A stretch of 64,000 nt of DNA from Phytophthora sp. 'mugwort' (lineage: Eukaryota; Oomycota; Peronosporomycetes; Peronosporales; Peronosporaceae), in contig JAUCEF010000007.1 of the NCBI GenBank assembly GCA_033558025.1, positions 1 to 64,000 on the forward strand. The letters are read 5' to 3'. The notes under the pieces were generated by a model. That model made no database searches. It saw only the letters and a program-made list of their open reading frames with translations, and had not been told where the DNA came from. A program made the position numbers and the translations under genes. Positions 1-10,610 of this stretch are shown here, one piece after another (within the stretch, counting starts at the first letter, position 1; the number at the start of each line of letters is the position of its first letter).

Positions 1-810
1 CCTAAACCCTAAACCCTAAACCCTAAACCCTAAACCCTAAACCCTAAACCCTAAACCCTAAACCCTAACCCTAAACCCTAAACCCTAAACCCTAAACCCT
101 AAACCCTAAACCCTAAACCCTAAACCCTAAACCCTAAACCCTAAACCCTAAACCCTAAACCCTAAACCCTAAACCCTAAACCCTAAACCCTAAACCCTAA
201 ACCCTAAACCCTAAACCCTAAACCCTAAACCCTAAACCCTAAACCCTAAACCCTAAACCCTAAACCCTAAACCCTAAACCCTAAACCCTAAACCCTAAAC
301 CCTAAACCCTAAACCCTAAACCCTAAACCCTAAACCCTAAACCCTAAACCCTAAACCCTAAACCCTAAACCCTAAACCCTAAACCCTAAACCCTAAACCC
401 TAAACCCTAAACCCTAAACCCTAAACCCTAAACCCTAAACCCTAAACCCTAAACCCTAAACCCTAAACCCTAAACCCTAAACCCTAAACCCTAAACCCTA
501 AACCCTAAACCCTAAACCCTAAACCCTAAACCCTAAACCCTAAACCCTAAACCCTAAACCCTAAACCCTAAACCCTAAACCCTAAACCCTAAACCCTAAA
601 CCCTAAACCCTAAACCCTAAACCCTAAACCCTAAACCCTAAACCCTAAACCCTAAACCCTAAACCCTAAACCCTAAACCCTAAACCCTAAACCCTAAACC
701 CTAAATAATAAACACTAAAACCCTAAACCCTAAACCCTAAACCCTAAACCCTAAACACTAAAACCCTAAACCCTAAACCCTAAACCCTAAACCCTAAACC
801 CTAAACCCTT
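1..810. repeat. Telomere, (CCCTAAA)n
   Basis: An almost perfect array of the heptamer CCCTAAA begins at base 1, so the window starts at a chromosome end and the G-rich TTTAGGG strand is the minus strand. One six-base variant (CCCTAA) lies near 65-72. Degenerate units (aaataataaacactaaaa and aaacactaaaa) lie near 703-720 and 750-765, at the inner end, as expected for older telomeric DNA. The array stops at CCCTTTGACACGG, the junction also seen at 4225-4237. This heptamer is typical of plants and oomycetes; the gene content argues for the latter. Confidence 0.97.
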
Positions 811-1250
811 TGACACGGTGGCGCGTCACAACCAGCATCCGTGATGTTGAAGATTCCCAGCGGGAAAATTCTACACGGTTAAAGATTCGCACTGCGAAGA
901 TTCCCAGCTGGATTCTCTGGGTACACAATTGGATTCTCTGGGTACACAACTGGATTTTCGGGGTACATTCACCCAACAAATCTAGTTTTAACCCACACCC
1001 ACTTCTCGAAGATTCAAGTGCACCCACGCACGCAAGTTGAAGATTCGAGAAACCAAGATGCATGAATCTTGCATGTGTAGTGAGTAGCTAGCAGTAGCAG
1101 AACAGCTTCAGCTGGACGCTCACTTCTCAATTTGCCGTCCACTGAAGAAGCCTAAGCGAAAGGACCACCGGAGAGGCCGACCTCCCGACCCTTTGGACAA
1201 CCAAATACAACTGTTTTTGTCGCGTCAAGCCTCAGTCTCAAGACACAAAC
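809..1250 (+). repeat. 5' module of the PLE, copy A (direct repeat of 4228-4670)
   Basis: This 442-bp block is nearly identical to 4228-4670; only scattered substitutions and one 1-base gap are visible. Both copies start directly after a CCCTAAACCC tract with TTTGACACGG and lose similarity after AGACACAAAC. Inside are three 21-bp tandem units (909-929, 930-950, 951-971; core GGATTCTCTGGGTACACAA, the third degenerate) and several GAAGATTC motifs. Small ORFs crossing it on both strands are not convincing. It is best read as the 5' untranslated/promoter region of the PLE, or else a subtelomeric repeat the PLE landed in. Confidence 0.75.
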
Positions 1251-1316
1251 CGATCGCCACCGCTTCGCGCTGCCTCGCGTTTGCACTCACTCCGGCTTCG
1301 CCTTCGTTTGTGTCAC

Positions 1317-1334
1317 AACCCTAAACCCTAAACC
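1317..1334. repeat. Short interstitial telomeric tract before ORF1
   Basis: AACCCTAAACCCTAAACC, about 2.5 telomeric units in the same orientation as the terminal telomere, lies 23 bp upstream of the ORF1 start codon. It separates a 66-bp stretch unique to copy A (1251-1316) from the coding part. It may mark an internal junction of two successive telomeric insertions, or be part of the element itself. Confidence 0.8.
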
Positions 1335-1357
1335 AACCAACACGAAGACAATTAAGG

Positions 1358-2296
1358 ATGGACTCGCAAGCATCGCTCGCTAGAAGCCCGCCGCAATTTA
1401 CCAAGGACCTCCTGTCGACCGCTATCGCAGAGTACAAGGCCCTCTTGAAGCAAATCGCCTCCAAGAAACGTGCCATCGACAAGCTCGAGCACGTCACGCC
1501 CAAGTCGATTCAACACAAGATCGACCTCAAGATCCCTCCGATCGTTCAAGACTCTTGTCCGACGGAGGCAACGGAGCTACAGCGACGCTTCAACACCGCC
1601 ATTGAGACCTCGCAAGCCTCAATGCGCCAAGTGATTATTGAAACTGCCAAGACCGAGCTAGAGCTGCTGCTCGAGACTCGTAGCAGGTTCAAAATCACTT
1701 GTGGGAGCAAGATCCACGATTACTTCGAGGCAGTTTTCGTGCAAGCGCGTCAATTAGTTGGTGCAGATGCCTCTCTGGCATTCGCGCCGGTGCTACCGGA
1801 CGAATCCCCGGCATTACTGCATGCAATAATCGGCGACTTGAACCTCTCAGTCGGATTCCTAAACAACACGCTTGACAGGATCGACTACGAGGACTTGTTG
1901 GCAACTACTCTTCGAGAGCAGCGCCAAGCTGAACGTCAAGCCCAACGAGCTTCGGCAGACGCTATGGAACTCGAGACTTCAAATGAAGTTCTCGTTGCTG
2001 CTCTTGTGAAACAAGAGGTTGCAAAGAAGACAAGCTCGCTCAACAAGGAGATCAACCAACTTCGTGCGGCGTTAAACGCCAGCGCCAACCGATCTGGAGC
2101 GCGGGATGGCGCGAAGCCGAAAAAAACGCTTCAAGCGACCAAGCAAACGTCGCAACAACCAGGTCGAGGCGGTGGAGAAAGAGCCCGAGGACAACGGCCC
2201 GGAAGAAACTCCAACAACTCCACCAAAAACAGCAGCGGAAAACAGCAAGGCAAGCCAAACGCGAAGCCAAGATCCCAGCGGAAGTCCGGCAATTAA
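1358..2296 (+). CDS. PLE ORF1, putative nucleic-acid-binding/coiled-coil protein
   Basis: A 312-residue ORF starting at ATG 1358, just downstream of the short telomeric tract. The N-terminal two thirds is helical and charged with likely coiled coil (residues ~20-50, ~70-110 and ~180-235, rich in E, K, Q, L). The last ~70 residues are very basic and low in complexity (R, G, K, S, N, Q), including an RGGGERARGQRPGR segment, consistent with RNA binding. I recognise no named domain. By position it is the ORF1/gag-like partner of the RT that follows. The RT frame is already open from about 2122, so ORF1 and the RT overlap in the -1 frame. A run of seven A's at 2120-2126 lies at the start of the overlap. 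Confidence 0.7.
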   Translation: MDSQASLARSPPQFTKDLLSTAIAEYKALLKQIASKKRAIDKLEHVTPKSIQHKIDLKIPPIVQDSCPTEATELQRRFNTAIETSQASMRQVIIETAKTELELLLETRSRFKITCGSKIHDYFEAVFVQARQLVGADASLAFAPVLPDESPALLHAIIGDLNLSVGFLNNTLDRIDYEDLLATTLREQRQAERQAQRASADAMELETSNEVLVAALVKQEVAKKTSSLNKEINQLRAALNASANRSGARDGAKPKKTLQATKQTSQQPGRGGGERARGQRPGRNSNNSTKNSSGKQQGKPNAKPRSQRKSGN

Positions 2297-2298
2297 GG

Positions 2299-4216
2299 AA
2301 CGAACTCCAATTCCATCCCGACCGCCCGACATTCAAGAACGCTCTTGCTATCTTCGCGCTCCGGAACGTTCAAGAAGTGGACAACGAAATCTCGAATCTC
2401 GCCTTCCACGACCTGATGTCTCCACCTGCTGATTTACCTGCCACCCTCAAGCGACTGCTAGGACTGAACCTCAATTTCTGTCCCACACCGCGCCGACTCT
2501 CGACTACCGATCTCCTTGAACGGCTACCAGACTTTGTTCGATCGCTTCGACTCCGGTACCTATTCCGGAAGAACGACAACAAAGCGTTCACGAAGAGCTC
2601 AATCTACGTGAAGAACGAAGCGTTTCAGCCACCACCATGTCCCCCTGCGATTGAAGCAACACTTCAGACCATCGAGCAACGTCTTCAAGTTACAACATTG
2701 GTCTCGAAGCGACACTTCAACATGACCAAGACCCAACGGGACTTGCTCAAGACCCTGATGTTCCGGCACGATCTCAAGGTTCTGCTGACCGACAAAAACC
2801 TCGGCCCAGCAGTCATGACATCAACCCAATACGTCGACTTCTGCCTTGATCATCTCCAAGACACTACGACGTACCGGAACATCCAAGCGCCCCCAGATGC
2901 CATCCTGAGACTGCTGAAGAGTACCGTCAGGAAGTACTACGAACGCATGTTTCAGCGATACGGCTACGATGTGGACTGGAAGGATACGGCGATCATCACC
3001 CACAAGATTGACGCAAGATCACTGAATGTGTTCTACGCACTAGCGAAGATACACAAGCCTCAGTTAGCACCGAGACCAATCGTCTCAAACGCTAATGGAG
3101 TGCTCCTCGGACTCTCCAAGTGGCTCGACTACCAACTCCAGCCATTGTTGAAAGCCTCTGCGTCATATCTCAAGAACTCGGATCAGCTCCTGACCGATCT
3201 CGCCGCCCTCCAAGTCACGCCGCAAGATCAGATCCTCACGTTCGATGTCGTTGCGCTATACACGAGTATACCGATCGACTGCGCGCTCGATACGTTTGCA
3301 AGGATCCTCAACGATCATCGATGGAAGACTGCCATCCTGGAAGGACTACACCTCATTCTGAGGTTCAACTATTTCCAGTTCGGCGAGCACGATGTGGCAC
3401 CAAATCACAGGTACCGCAATGGGTACCCCGGTTGCACCAGCTTTTGCCTCACTCTACCTTGCGCACTTTGATAGCCAGCTGACACCAGAGTTCCAAGAAT
3501 CCCTCGTGTACTTCCGTCGATACATCGATGATGGATTGATCATCTGGCGCCCAAGAACGGAAGATCCTTTTGCACTCCAAAGGTTCTTCGCCAAGTTCAC
3601 GCGTCTGTCAAGACTCAAGTTCACACACGAACAGAGTCTGACCGAAGCGCCGTTTCTCGATCTCTGGATCGCCAAGACCGAAAACGGACTTCGAACCAAG
3701 ACGCACCAAAAAGCGCTAAATCTGTACCTCTACCTTCCAGCTGCCAGCGCACATCCGCCTGGCGTGCTCAAAGGGTTGATCTACGGGCTCGTGAAGAAGT
3801 ACACAATGCAGAACCCAGACGCGAACGACTTCAAGTCGGTCGTTAATCTGCTTCTGCAACGACTGCAAAGTCGTGGCTATCGAGCCACCAAACTGCTACC
3901 AATCTTCCGAGCTGCGCTGGAGGAAACAAGAGCACCAAGGCCGCGGACATCCAAGGTCTTCTTTAAAGTTCCCTACGATCCGAATGGACCGTCCGGCGCG
4001 GAACTGAAGAGAATCCTTGACGTCCAAGCACTCGAAACCGAAACAAAGAAATTCGGGATCGACCAAGTCAGCCTGTGCTATCTGAAGCCTCCGACTCTCA
4101 AGCGCAAGCTGTGCCCAACAAGACTACCACCGACATTCTCCCCGTCTCCTGCAGACCGCCTCGCACTTCGATCAAGAAAGCGAAAGCGATCGGTCTGTAC
4201 AGAGGACGGGGGGTAA
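2299..4216 (+). pseudogene. PLE reverse transcriptase, no GIY-YIG endonuclease, one frameshift
   Basis: RT of the Penelope/telomerase-like clade, which copies its own RNA onto a DNA end. Frame 1 is open from about 2122, overlapping ORF1, to 3471. Sense coding runs to ~3390 and continues in frame 2 from 3392 (ATGTGGCACCAA...) to 4216. Motifs in order: TDKNLGPAVM (~2790), ALAKIHKP and PRPIVSNANG (~3040-3100), catalytic FDVVALYTSIP (~3240), QITGTAMGTPVAP (~3400-3440), catalytic RYIDDG (~3515), FLDLWI (~3655), and HPPGVLKGLIYG (~3750). The C-terminus ends in a basic RSRKRKRS tail with no GIY-YIG, Zn-finger or other nuclease motif. The single shift at ~3386-3392, between FQFGEH and the next motif, looks like one extra base. 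It is a decay mutation, an assembly error or, less likely, recoding. The stop codon TAA at 4214-4216 is the first three bases of the telomeric repeat. Confidence 0.85.
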
Positions 4217-4227
4217 ACCCTAAACCC
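4214..4227. repeat. Telomeric tract at the PLE 3' end
   Basis: TAAACCCTAAACCC directly follows the last RT codon (GGG) and is followed directly by copy B of the 5' module. Orientation matches the terminal telomere. This is the expected scar of an RNA 3' end in CCCTAAA annealing to an exposed G-strand overhang. Confidence 0.85.
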
Positions 4228-4670
4228 TTTGACACGGTGGCGCGTCACAACCAGCATCCGTAATGTTGAAGATTCTCAGCGGGAAAATTCTACACGGTTG
4301 AAGATTCGCACTGCGAAAATTCCCAGCTGGATTCTCTGGGTACACAATTGGATTCTCTGGGTACACAACTGGATTTTCGGGGTACATTCACCCAACAAAT
4401 CTAGTTTTAACCCACACGCACTTCTCGAAGATTCAAGTGCACCCACGCACGCAAGTTGAAGATTCGAGAAACGCAAGATGCATGAATTTTGCATGTGTAG
4501 TGAGTAGCTAGCAGTAGCAGAACAGCTTCAGCTGGACGCTCACTTCTCAATTTGCCGTCCACTGAAGAAGCCCAAGCGATAGGACCACCGGATAGGCCGA
4601 CCTCCCGACCCTTTGGACAACTAAATACAACTGTTTTTGTCGCGTCAAGCCTCAGTCTCAAGACACAAAC
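4228..4670 (+). repeat. PLE 5' module, copy B (truncated second unit)
   Basis: Direct repeat of 809-1250, with the same junction (CCCTTTGACACGG) and the same three 21-bp tandem units (4328-4390). After AGACACAAAC at 4670 it switches to unrelated GATCGG-rich sequence, so no ORF1 follows. This fits an older PLE unit whose 3' part was lost before the newer one joined distally. The alternative is a generic subtelomeric repeat. Confidence 0.75.
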
Positions 4671-6267
4671 TGACAGATCGGTATACACATTCTAACATAA
4701 ACGATCTGGGAGATCGGGCCGATCGGTGTTCGCAGATCGACAAACATGTCTGACATCCGCGACTTGGCAGATCGGGATTCGGTCAGCAATCATCCTCGGG
4801 GATGGACAAGTATGAAGACGGTACGTTTGAGTGGTTGAAGCAGGGCAAGATTCATGAGATGCAGGTGGTACGAGATAGGGTTCAAGATGGGAGGATAGGA
4901 CAAGAAAAGGATAAACAAAAATCAGACTCGAATTTGCATTGGACGCTTGGTTGGATTTCAAATACACATATCGACGGAAGATATGGCCTGTACGAAGCTT
5001 ATGGCCTATACTACTCTTGTCACATCTTCCCGGTCGTTCACTATGGAAAGTATTTAACCAATCGCAGTCGGACTACACTTTTATGCGTCGAAGTAGAGGC
5101 TTTCATCTTTCTTATATTTGGGTTCAATGTGCTAATACTGCACATGGTAAGAATTGGTGTTTATCATTGTTTTTTACTTCATGTTCTAATTCCCAATTAG
5201 CATTAAATTTGGTTCAGGTAAAAAGCTGTTTATATTTTTCATTTGAAGGCAGTACCGAACAGAATAATTGAATCAAATGAGGTTTCATAATATCCAAAAG
5301 GAACGATTTTAAATTTAGATGCGATATTACTGTGAAATAATACTAAATATTTTGAAGGTTATTTGTATTGTGTATGAGTATATGTAATGAATGACCCGAT
5401 TTAGCACCGGTACGAGTATCCGAGTATCGCCGAGATCGACTAATAAATCAGTTTGTCATAGTCTTTACAACTTCGACGAGCTATAAATAGTATATTTTTA
5501 ATTTTAAAGGAGGTCAGTTTTGATTGGCGCCTATTCGTCAAAATAACGATAATTAATAACCAATCACGATGATAGGCCATAACAAGCGTCCTTTGTAGTC
5601 TGCGCTTGCACTGAGATTTTGTATGGGATCGCGTTTCTGTCCACAGGCCACATCTTCCGTCGATATGTGTACCACATGAAGGGAACTACATTGGTCCACC
5701 AAGGTGCCAACTATCCCAGCAGGTAGATCAAGTGTCGTAGTGCGAAGATCGGATCATATCTTGGTCGATTTCCCCCCACGCGAGCGAGCTTCTGCTCAAG
5801 CGCATACCTCGATCGATCGGCATCTAGTGCAGGCCGACGATCGTTCGACTCTCAACTCGCAAAATCCCGCTAAATCAAGCGACAAGCAGCTCAAGAAAAG
5901 GGAAAGAACAACACCACACGGCAACCTCGGCCTCGGATCAAGTCCAGGCAATCGATCGAAAGTCGACTATCCCCGATCGGAACGAATAACGGCAGAAGAG
6001 CGAAGACTTCCGCGCTGCCTTACATCCCTACATCCCGCCAAGACGTTCAAGACTTTACATCGCTGCATCCCTTGGAGTTCCGAGAGAGCAGATTCAGCCC
6101 ACCGCAGTACGCAAAGCGATACCAAGTTCAGCAAAAAACAGATCCTAGGGGTACCTCCTCCGTTAGTCGGTGTCTGGTCGCATGGGAGCGGATCTGGTCC
6201 TAATCATATTTTAATTAATCCCGCTAGAAAAGAAAGACTCTCCGTGCAGGTGTCTTTTTCGCAGTGT
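4671..6267. other. No recognisable gene; GATC-rich flanks around an AT-rich core
   Basis: 4671-4800 and about 5735-5980 are dense in GATC/CGATCG-type palindromes (CAGATCGG, CGATCTGGGAGATCGG, CGATCGATCGG, CCGATCGG). The stretch between (~5000-5650) is AT-rich. ORFs here (4802-5200; a 195-codon frame at 5704-6291 without an ATG start) show no domain and read through repeats, so I do not call genes. Confidence 0.5.
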
Positions 6268-6300
6268 TTAGGGTTTAGGGTTTGGGTTTAGGGTTTAGTA
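6268..6300. repeat. Inverted interstitial telomeric tract (TTTAGGG)
   Basis: Two TTTAGGG units, a six-base TTTGGG, another TTTAGGG and TTTAG, in the opposite orientation to the terminal telomere. It ends exactly where the truncated minus-strand RT fragment (6301-6692) begins. This is a relic of a former chromosome end, an end-to-end join, or telomeric DNA used in break repair. Confidence 0.85.
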
Positions 6301-6692: not shown

Positions 6693-6856
6693 TGTTGGAT
6701 GGGAGGTACACCGGCAGCTGCGACCGTGGGATCAGAAGTGTGTGGCTCTGGAGAGCCCGTAGATATTCTACTAGAAGCTGGTAAGATCCTCAATTCACTC
6801 TCTCTTTTGCATCGTAACCTCATAGCGCGTGGTGGTCTGCCGACCCCATTCTAACA
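6693..6856 (+). repeat. copia 5' LTR
   Basis: 164 bp, TGTTGGATGGGAGG...CCATTCTAACA. It differs from the 3' LTR by scattered substitutions and small indels visible by eye, so the insertion is not recent. Confidence 0.85.
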
Positions 6857-6860
6857 GGTT

Positions 6861-8045: not shown

Positions 8046-9640
8046 GTGTCCGAATCTCAAGAGCGGATAAAGGCGGACATACCTTGGCGTGAACGAAGCA
8101 ACGATAGAGCCAGGAAAGTATGGATCCTGGATTGCGGGTCCAGTCGCCATCTGGTCAACGACGCGTCGTGGCTGGACGAGGTGGAGCCGTACATCGACTC
8201 GTGCCTGCAGCCGAACGGAGACCTGCTGGACATTAGCAAGAAGGGCACGCTGACTTTTTCGGTTAAGGCGTGTGGTGTGGAACAGACGGTGAAGCTCACG
8301 GATGTGTACTATGCCAAGAATGTGGTGCACAATCTAATCTCGTACGGGACACTGAACAAGAAGGGATACGCGCTGACCCACAAGGACGGACGACGAGTCG
8401 TGGCTGCCAAGAATGGGGGCGTGTAGTGTTCGACGTGGACTTGCAGAAGAACGTGCTGGTGGTGTGCGGAAGTGTCGCGAAGAAACACAAGCCCCCGTCT
8501 AAAGTGATCATGGCAGTTTTGGAGGCGGAGGTGAACGGTGGTGATGAGATGGCCGCGGACGTCAGAAAGGAACGCTGGTCGAGTTTCATAGGCGGCTTGG
8601 GCACCTGAACTACGACGCCGTGGAACGGCTGGTTCGTGACCCGAGCTCTGGCATCGCTCTCACCGATCACAAGCACGTGAACTGTCTTACCTGCGCGGAA
8701 GGCAAGCAGTCGAAGAATCGGCAGTCGAAAAGAGACAGTGGGGATCACTCGCCCATTGACTGTATCGGCGGCGTGATCTGTTCAGACCTCAAGGGCCCTA
8801 TGACTCCAAAAGACAGACTGAACAACAGATACATGATCAATTTTGTGGATCACAAGCGCAACTATTGTCGGGTGTTTTTGGCTCGCACGAAAGATGCTGC
8901 GGCGAAGCAATTCGAGCATTTCCTGACCTTCTTTCGAGAAGAGGTTTGACTGCAAGATCCACGTGTTGCGCACAGACTCCGGAGGCGAGTACGAGAACGT
9001 AGACCTCTTCTTCAAGCGCACGGGCGTCGCCCGGCAGCGCAGCGAGGCACGTAACCAAGCGAATAACGGAAAGGCCAAGCGAATGCATCAAACCATCGTG
9101 AACATGGCGAGGTGATGATATTCGCGTGCGGATTACCACTTTGGTGCGACGCGGTCCAGTACGCCGCGTATATACTGAACAGGTCGCCGACAAACTCGAA
9201 CGCCAGTCGCGCATCGCCACTCAAGGTTCTGACGAAGCAAACTCCGCCGCTGGGCGAGATCGTTGTCTTTGGATCGCCGTGTACGGTTTACCGTGACCGG
9301 AGGAACAAGAACTTCTCGCAGCGGGCTCAGCAGGGTATGACCGTCCGCATCGGCGAGGAAACAAAAGGGTGTAGGGTGTACCTGCCCAAGGACAAGGTGG
9401 CGGTCACGACACAGCACGTGAAAAACATCGAGACGTTAGGCAAGACTCAGAACGAACAGGTGCAACGGCTTTACCTAGAAGACGAGGAGGCTGAGGCTGA
9501 AGAGGAGCCAAATAAATGCTGCGGATCTTGGAGCGGCAGGTGCAGGAGCCGCCCAAAATGCGCGTGGCGCGAGCAGCTGGACCAAGAATCACAAGGCAAC
9601 CCGGCGCACGCATGCACCGACCAGCGCGGACTGGAAGTTG
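8046..9640 (+). pseudogene. copia protease-integrase region, fragmented
   Basis: The aspartic protease reads WILDCGSSRHLV at ~8128 (family consensus D-S/T-G/A, here DCG). It is followed by a GAG-pre-integrase segment (NLISYGTLNKKGYAL). The integrase zinc-binding part has NCLTCAEGK (~8680). The core has CSDLKGP and LRTDSGGEYEN, but the third catalytic position reads NNGKAKRM where NGxxER is expected, so the catalytic Glu is Lys. Stops at ~8424 and ~8947 and a frameshift near 9110 break it. The 9112-9750 block carries the integrase C-terminal region (VVFGSPCTVYRD...). Confidence 0.75.
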
Positions 9641-10216: not shown

Positions 10217-10378
10217 TGTTGGATGGGAGGTACACTGGCAGCTGCGACCGTGGGATCAGAAATGTAGGCTTTGGAGAACCCGTAGATCTTCTACTAGAAG
10301 CTGTAAGATCCTCAATTCACTCTCTTTTTACCATCGTAACCTCATAGCGCGTGGTGGTCTGCCGACCCCATCCTAACA
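10217..10378 (+). repeat. copia 3' LTR
   Basis: 162 bp, TGTTGGATGGGAGG...CCATCCTAACA, preceded by the purine tract GAGGAGGAG. Confidence 0.85.
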
Positions 10379-10610
10379 GTCGCAGTGTCAATGACTAGCG
10401 CGTTATCGCACTCGAGGCGACCGCCGATTAGATAGGCACATTCGGTGTGAGTGCACACGTTGCGGAAGGCCGAAGCAACGTCGCCTGCTTGGAGTTTGAT
10501 TTTTCTGCTTCCAGGTAATGTTTTGTGGCGGAAGGATCTCGACGGCGACAGCGTCACAGTGCTCAAATTTCGGAGTACATATGCTAGACGCGTCGGTGTG
10601 GCCGTTAAGA
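10379..10610 (-). pseudogene. 5' half of the WVDDH-type RT gene
   Basis: The minus strand encodes KLQAGDVASAFRNV (the first palm aspartate, consensus GDVxxAFR), then YLIGGRLECDNALVIDTAT. It breaks at the copia target site and resumes at 6692 with AAFGWSGSP. The continuity across the insertion is what identifies copia as the intruder. Confidence 0.6.

Follow-up and report, generated by a model that had tools for sequence, protein, structure and literature searches.

The stretch of DNA analysed here (the window) covers the first 64 kb of the 10.3-Mb contig C7 of Phytophthora sp. 'mugwort', whose genome is assembled in 154 contigs (86.26 Mb). It begins with a terminal telomere array, (CCCTAAA)n, at 1-809 (115.4 units with 98% matches by tandem repeats finder). 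A Penelope-like element (PLE) starts at position 810, directly inside the array and with its sense strand pointing inward, as an earlier sequence-only reading of this DNA had described. All parts listed in this paragraph are on the forward strand. The first is the core of a pseudo-long terminal repeat (pLTR) at 810-1253, which is a direct repeat of 4229-4670 (97-98%). It includes an oomycete-type core promoter (1120-1150), identified by pattern match plus random controls, and a predicted hammerhead-like type I fold (1137-1198) without an Rfam match. The leader (1254-1357) contains an internal telomere seed, CCCTAAACCCTAAA, at 1319-1332. Open reading frame 1 (ORF1; 1358-2296, 312 amino acids), also named in the sequence-only reading, follows. 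The frame is open and has no Pfam match, 44 genome matches and 9 protein relatives. The reverse transcriptase (RT) region, ORF2, lies at 2297-4216; its frame is broken in the window copy and it has no GIY-YIG match. The RT stop codon is contained in a CCCTAAA joint (4214-4228) between the RT and a second, 3' pLTR (4229-4673). The second pLTR has the promoter motif again, at 4540, carries a changed hammerhead GAAA, and stops short of the telomeric tail.

Below, P stands for the pLTR core and G for the leader, and a number after P, G or RT is a position within that part. In the family of the window copy (family A), the order from the telomere inward is P, G, ORF1, RT, a CCCTAAA joint of 15-24 bp, and a second P. 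The unit is ~3.4 kb long with two ORFs and has two internal telomere seeds; the seed in the leader is the same motif as that found at the usual 3' end of other copies. In the window, the repeat at 795-1253 recurs at 4214-4673 with 97-98% identity, the second pLTR being ~443 bp long. A pLTR query (810-1250) gives 52 genome matches. The sequence-only reading had delimited the element as 809-4227 and placed CCCTAAA at the 3' end of its RNA. An end at 4227 is ruled out: in 31 of the 31 RT 3' ends examined, P continues from its first base 15-24 bp on. Therefore, the CCCTAAA at 4214-4228 is internal, and the element runs past the RT through the second pLTR to ~4673. The inner junction of the window copy is at ~4670-4673, and the usual telomeric tail is missing there.

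The distribution of the element was examined in the 17 large contigs (C1-C18 except C15; 2.8-10.3 Mb each and 80.6 Mb in sum) and, among the other 137 contigs, in the first part of C15 (43.7 kb) and of C25 (101 kb); counts of genome matches are lower bounds. The RT query gives at least 40 genome matches, some of which are pieces of one copy, and all 40 candidates of the first look were scored. Of these, 38 lie within 12 kb of a large-contig end. Since the 12-kb zones of the 34 ends make up 0.47% of the genome, this clustering is more than expected by chance. Thirty-seven of the 40 are both terminal and inward-pointing. Almost all copies adjoin telomere repeats, in agreement with what the sequence-only reading had proposed from one end. 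The exceptions are an internal copy on C2, an outward-pointing copy at the right end of C18, and a match on C25, the start of which is masked. The C2 copy (C2:2653672-2657344) consists of one unit exactly once, circularly permuted and opened within ORF1; a 195-bp piece of it is inverted (a 5' inversion), and 253 bp of other sequence lies beside it. By eye, the window at 4802-4967, just inside the element, resembles the right flank of this copy (C2:2657348 onward), which is probably another repeat. The outward element on C18 (C18:4911972-4923052) lies inside the right end; its 5' side, which is the outer one, is bordered by a degenerate telomere tract.

The telomere is reached at 32 of the 34 large-contig ends; C10 left is masked, and C13 left has no telomere repeat in its first 3 kb. 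At 31 of these 32 assembled telomeres, PLE sequence is found at or near the telomere, pointing inward. The outermost feature is the first base of P (P1) at 14 ends, the leader seed (G64) at 2, P314-379 at 7, P100 at 1, the RT at 3 (RT1170, RT1315, and RT1798), and a second family, B, at 3. At C2 right it is the extreme end of P, with ~300 bp of degenerate repeat outside it. The outermost junction is thus at an internal telomere seed in 16 of the 32 ends (14 at P1 and 2 at G64). Some outermost features are small PLE remnants (C5 left and C8 left), and at C13 right ~45 bp of other sequence separates the telomere from family B. The sole telomere without an adjacent PLE is C18 right, where the terminal telomere begins abruptly on non-telomeric sequence; judged by its sequence, this end looks like an old end joined on plus a healed break. 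Stacked copies separated by telomere tracts are found at C9 left and C10 right, and C3 right has three tandem head-to-tail units, the innermost running past the examined stretch.

The 3' ends of the copies are near-constant and the 5' ends variable. The usual 3' tail is the pLTR plus ~81 nt and ends in CCCTAAACCCTAAA, ~80 bp past the pLTR core. Of the 65 P copies that extend to at least position 430, 23 continue into a body; the others end at G74-92 (35), at G42-47 (2), or near the end of P (5). Tailed ends are therefore 35 of the 42 pLTR 3' ends that have no body behind them. P copies broken earlier (P134, P144, P306, P325, P336, and P347 among them) are outside this count. What comes after the CCCTAAACCCTAAA tail is either more telomere repeats, the next copy, or inner sequence of diverse kinds. 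The five copies stopping near the P end are the window copy and those at C7 right, C8 right, C4 right, and C18 left, the last two extending a few bases further into G. Such stops may reflect another type of RNA end, with priming at breaks, or sequence lost at a later time.

The motifs DKN, YIDD, and HPP mark PLEs. Their residues are invariant or nearly so over 50 aligned sequences, which confirms the PLE-type RT of the sequence-only reading. That reading also took the element to be well preserved. This holds for ORF1, but the RT of the window copy is split between two frames, with 6 stops in the RT frame. At the sequence level the RT shows purifying selection, its frame being open in 14 of 20 near-full copies with a ratio of nonsynonymous to synonymous polymorphism (pN/pS) of ~0.4. 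Identical RTs are found on C5, C9, and C10, which fits either retrotransposition or exchange between ends. The earlier claim that GIY-YIG is absent stands as well. By Pfam scan there is none in the window copy, whose N-terminal and C-terminal halves were scanned separately, and none in the scanned open RT frames of families A and B; precomputed domains have none among 120 listed of 552 RT relatives. A GIY-YIG-bearing query (protein P0132) gives 37 genome matches, all at already known loci, and therefore no PLE containing an endonuclease (EN) is detected in this genome.

Among the matches listed, relatives of the RT include proteins of Pythium oligandrum (47% over 87%) and Phytophthora kernoviae (50% over 71%). 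These relatives, the CCCTAAA telomere, and the core promoter described below all point to an oomycete host. In an RT tree of 79 rows with quick support, families A and B fall in a 65-row group with Pythium and Phytophthora proteins. A separate 12-row group contains all three PF01541-bearing rows plus frog proteins; the separation from the PF01541-bearing rows has a support of 95 in the Shimodaira-Hasegawa-like approximate likelihood ratio test (SH-aLRT). On the placement among EN-deficient PLEs raised earlier, this tree, which has no named Athena or Coprina sequences, bears through that separation. When the predicted RT fold is compared with known structures, the first 11 rows are all telomerase. 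PLEs and telomerase share ancestry. Most of the relatives P0001-P0020 and P0147-P0155 sit on contigs of ~2.3-3.6 kb at longest. This is close to the size of the 3.4-kb unit and would be expected from a collapse of arrays during assembly.

By a home-made score, the coiled coil of ORF1 is weak in family A (10 of 300 shuffles score as well) and absent in family B (84 of 300). ORF2 overlaps ORF1 in the -1 frame (window 2106-2340), and it is open and similar between the two families upstream of its first ATG. Frameshifting or reinitiation may therefore serve to produce ORF2. Seven consecutive A occupy 2120-2126. A -1 slippery site of the canonical kind was rejected for the overlap, since AAAAAAC at 2121 is not in the phase that such a site requires.

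Family B is represented by four copies, all at right ends and all inward. Its RT is 51% identical to that of family A over a 583-column alignment, and its ORF1 25-27%. The RT stop codon of family B likewise lies within the CCCTAAA joint. Its pLTR-like tail ends in CAATAA followed by telomere repeats and is much alike at all four ends. Telomere tracts are found on the inner side at C5, C11, and C17 right.

In Phytophthora infestans, the core promoter is described as an initiator (INR, YCAYTYY), a flanking promoter region (FPR, MWTTTNC) 2 nt on, and a downstream promoter element (DPEP, SAASMMS) 5-12 nt further (passages of Roy et al. 2013, PMC3599244). P has the INR TCACTTC at 1120-1126, the FPR AATTTGC at 1129-1135 with TC between them, and the DPEP GAAGAAG at 1144-1150; the predicted transcription start is A1122. 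Over both strands of the window, INR plus FPR occurs at 1120, 4540, and 6795 (random mean of 0.11 per 64 kb). The full set occurs at 1120 and 4540 only (random mean of 0.0 in 100 trials), and its frequency in random 548-nt leaders is 5e-5. An older promoter consensus finds the same two sites with one mismatch, and none in shuffles. The promoter stretch is identical in 51 of 59 locatable P copies, variant in 5, and outside the copy in 3. The motifs of the pLTR agree with those published for the core promoter of oomycetes. On C6, the outermost copy at either end begins within 2 nt of the predicted start; the two ends may have a common origin. Leaving aside junctions at P1 or at the leader seed, family A has 12 outermost junctions, and seven of these lie in P314-379. 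Short units from P314-371 to G80-81 are found at C6, C8, C10, and C17. Such promoter-to-tail units would fit reverse transcription of short RNAs made by solo pLTRs.

PLEs are described as carrying minimal hammerheads, usually without helix III (parts of PMC6155905). Both families here appear to carry a hammerhead-like fold missed by Rfam, searches of which with the element gave no hammerhead or other ribozyme match. The parts are CUGAAGA, AGCCUAAGC, GAAA, stem III AGG/CCU, and stem I GUCCA/UGGAC in family A, and CUGAUGA, AGCAAGACAGC, GAAA, stem III AAC/GUU, and stem I UCCUA/UAGGA in family B. In the window, stem I is at 1137-1141/1194-1198, CUGAAGA at 1142-1148, stem II at 1149-1157, and GAAA at 1158-1161, with the predicted cut between 1193 and 1194. 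The core pattern is found in ~1.1% (A) and 0.7% (B) of shuffles and, over both strands of the window, at three other sites. Matching stems are rightly placed in 0.01% (A) and 0.05% (B) of random flanks, at thresholds chosen after the hits were seen. By eye, A and B have different bases on each side of three stem I pairs and two stem III pairs, with pairing kept. Unconstrained folding predicts a three-way junction in both families, but stem III runs into the core, and the fold energy of A is not exceptional (z of -1.56; 13 of 200 shuffles fold as well). Of 59 P copies, 57 have CUGAAGA and two are cut at that place; GAAA is intact in 53. In the window's inner pLTR, GAAA is changed, and this pLTR folds no better than shuffles. 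In one case only, C4 left, the outermost copy starts within ~1 nt of the predicted cut. Two other placements in family A, on the 5' side, were rejected as weaker and needing G-U pairs. Another hammerhead-core-like site, in the RT region, was likewise rejected.

These elements are very probably endonuclease-deficient, telomere-dwelling Penelope-like retroelements whose RNA tail is copied onto the G-rich overhang and whose new end is recapped by telomerase; the sequence-only reading of an EN-deficient telomeric PLE is supported. The sequences that carry this reading are the anatomy of the unit, its location, orientation and stacking, the pattern of 3' and 5' ends, the promoter match, the hammerhead-like fold, the selection on the RT, and the presence of canonical telomere repeats plus a telomerase domain gene in the genome. 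From them we infer the RNA ends, overhang priming, telomerase recapping, ribozyme activity, and present mobility. Transcription would start in the pLTR core promoter at about A1122, and the RNA would extend inward through the leader, ORF1, RT, CCCTAAA joint, and second pLTR to end in or near the CCCTAAACCCTAAA tail. This tail (CCCUAAA) would pair with the TTTAGGG overhang, and the chromosome's 3'-OH would prime reverse transcription, so that no endonuclease would be needed. It is the junctions that point to such priming. The complementary DNA would become the new G-rich strand, with the element inward and its 5' end outermost, and telomerase would add repeats to the new end. Repeated rounds would stack copies, with telomere repeats between some of them. 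Copies starting at P1 could regain the part before the promoter by read-through RNA from an outer pLTR, or by recapping at the seed before P1.

Several observations weigh against this reading. Fourteen of the 32 ends begin precisely at P1, ahead of the predicted start of the RNA, an arrangement that simple end-to-end copying of this RNA would not produce. The copy on C2 is internal, 555 kb from the right end, and the copy at C18 right points outward. In five copies, including that of the window, the inner end lies near the end of P and has no telomeric tail; two copies end at G42-47, and more P copies break earlier. The composite P371-G81-RT1020 is common to C8 right and C10 right, which implies exchange between ends, a process that by the sequences is also at work here. 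Exchange could be taken further. Yeast Y' elements are subtelomeric repeats spreading by recombination between chromosome ends, and the copies here may be Y'-like repeats with short telomere tracts between them, in which the RT is a passenger and retrotransposition is past. This would account for that composite, for identical RT copies on three contigs, and for recurring breakpoints (RT1170 at C1 left and C9 left, and P314 at both C6 ends). We consider it quite improbable, given the purifying selection on an RT open in 14 of 20 near-full copies, 3' ends mostly at one telomeric motif where 5' ends vary, the short promoter-to-tail units, and the differing sequences inside the same 3' junction.

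Misplacement of one repeat at many ends by the assembler is very hard to credit. Contig-end repeats are a usual site of misassembly, and a sequencing error could explain the frameshift in the window copy's RT, but the ends differ in truncation points and inner flanks, their orientation is consistent, and telomere repeats lie outside them. If instead PLE addition and recapping at internal seeds were needed for end maintenance, the element would be domesticated and not a tolerated parasite. The presence of PLE sequence at 31 of the 32 telomeres assembled, the position of 16 of the 32 outermost junctions at an internal seed, and the abrupt start of the one telomere lacking an adjacent PLE are in line with this. 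However, telomerase may suffice in a genome with canonical repeats and a telomerase domain gene, many copies are broken, and universality is expected of an end-targeting parasite too, which makes domestication unlikely. Somewhat less doubtful, and still put forward tentatively, is the idea that the PLE array is a standing part of end structure, with two recapping seeds per unit, an outer promoter transcribing the inner neighbour, and a hammerhead for unit-length or circular RNA. The C2 copy would then be the trace of a circle integrated at a break.

Telomere-associated EN-deficient PLEs were reportedly described by Gladyshev and Arkhipova in 2007, and because their abstract is said to include stramenopiles among the first hosts, the host group as such may already be known. 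PLEs without EN that sit at chromosome ends, are primed there, and are capped by telomere repeats have been described before (sections of PMC3846280 and PMC6431247); the sequence-only reading likewise stated that EN-deficient PLEs at telomeres are known in several eukaryotes. They share with the present element an RT without EN, a location at chromosome ends, a 5' end that is outermost and telomere-capped, and telomeric motifs at or near the 3' end (described in part of PMC3846280). What differs is that all large-contig ends are mapped here and that the promoter, the hammerhead-like fold, and the two seeds per unit are laid out. Athena and Terminons of bdelloid rotifers likewise have an EN-deficient RT, a 3' end with reverse-complement telomere repeats, head-to-tail arrays, and mostly 5'-truncated telomeric copies, and their hammerhead near that 3' end may correspond to the predicted hammerhead-like fold here. 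However, they reach up to 40 kb, as compared with the two-ORF unit of ~3.4 kb here, and their tail comes immediately after the hammerhead instead of ~125 nt past the predicted cut (sections of PMC6431247). EN-containing PLEs of the Penelope/Poseidon type have the same pLTR-ORF-pLTR tandem layout and PLE RT, and a hammerhead motif to which the predicted fold here may correspond, but also a C-terminal GIY-YIG and AT-rich insertion sites (sections of PMC11167929); here there is no GIY-YIG match and no such spread. HeT-A, TART, and TAHRE of Drosophila are also added to chromosome ends with the 5' end outermost and in stacked arrays (parts of PMC5537684). They differ in having a non-LTR RT in a host without telomerase; the present genome has canonical repeats as well as a gene with a telomerase domain. 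In their promoter arrangement, an outer copy can carry the promoter for the inner one, and an outer PLE copy here could do the same. The kind of element is known, and the additions here are the end-by-end map, the promoter, the hammerhead-like fold, and the seed arrangement. Literature searches gave no title or abstract opening reporting oomycete telomeric PLEs, most full texts being unexamined, and no claim is made that they are unpublished; nor did the searches give a paper combining Penelope-like, hammerhead, and Phytophthora.

Other repeats lie inside the element in the window. An inverted repeat of 29 nt (4963-4991/5643-5671; 97% complementary, 651 nt apart) may mark a small transposon at both of its ends. 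At 6266-6298, 6.3 kb from the end, there are short interstitial repeats of the TTTAGGG type, oriented the opposite way. Direct repeats at 6693-6857 and 10217-10379, 3.52 kb apart, flank ORFs that by eye are LTR-retroelement-like, with an integrase-like stretch near 8620-8949.

EN-deficient PLEs are a living case of a retroelement in a telomerase-like role at chromosome tips. This terminal way of life is known but has rarely been mapped. In a near-complete genome with open RTs, a host-type promoter, a defined tail, and PLE sequence at 31 of 32 assembled telomeres of the large contigs, overhang priming, seed recapping, and the role of the hammerhead would become directly testable. The map suggests that much of the chromosome-end variation in such genomes stems from a terminal retroelement.

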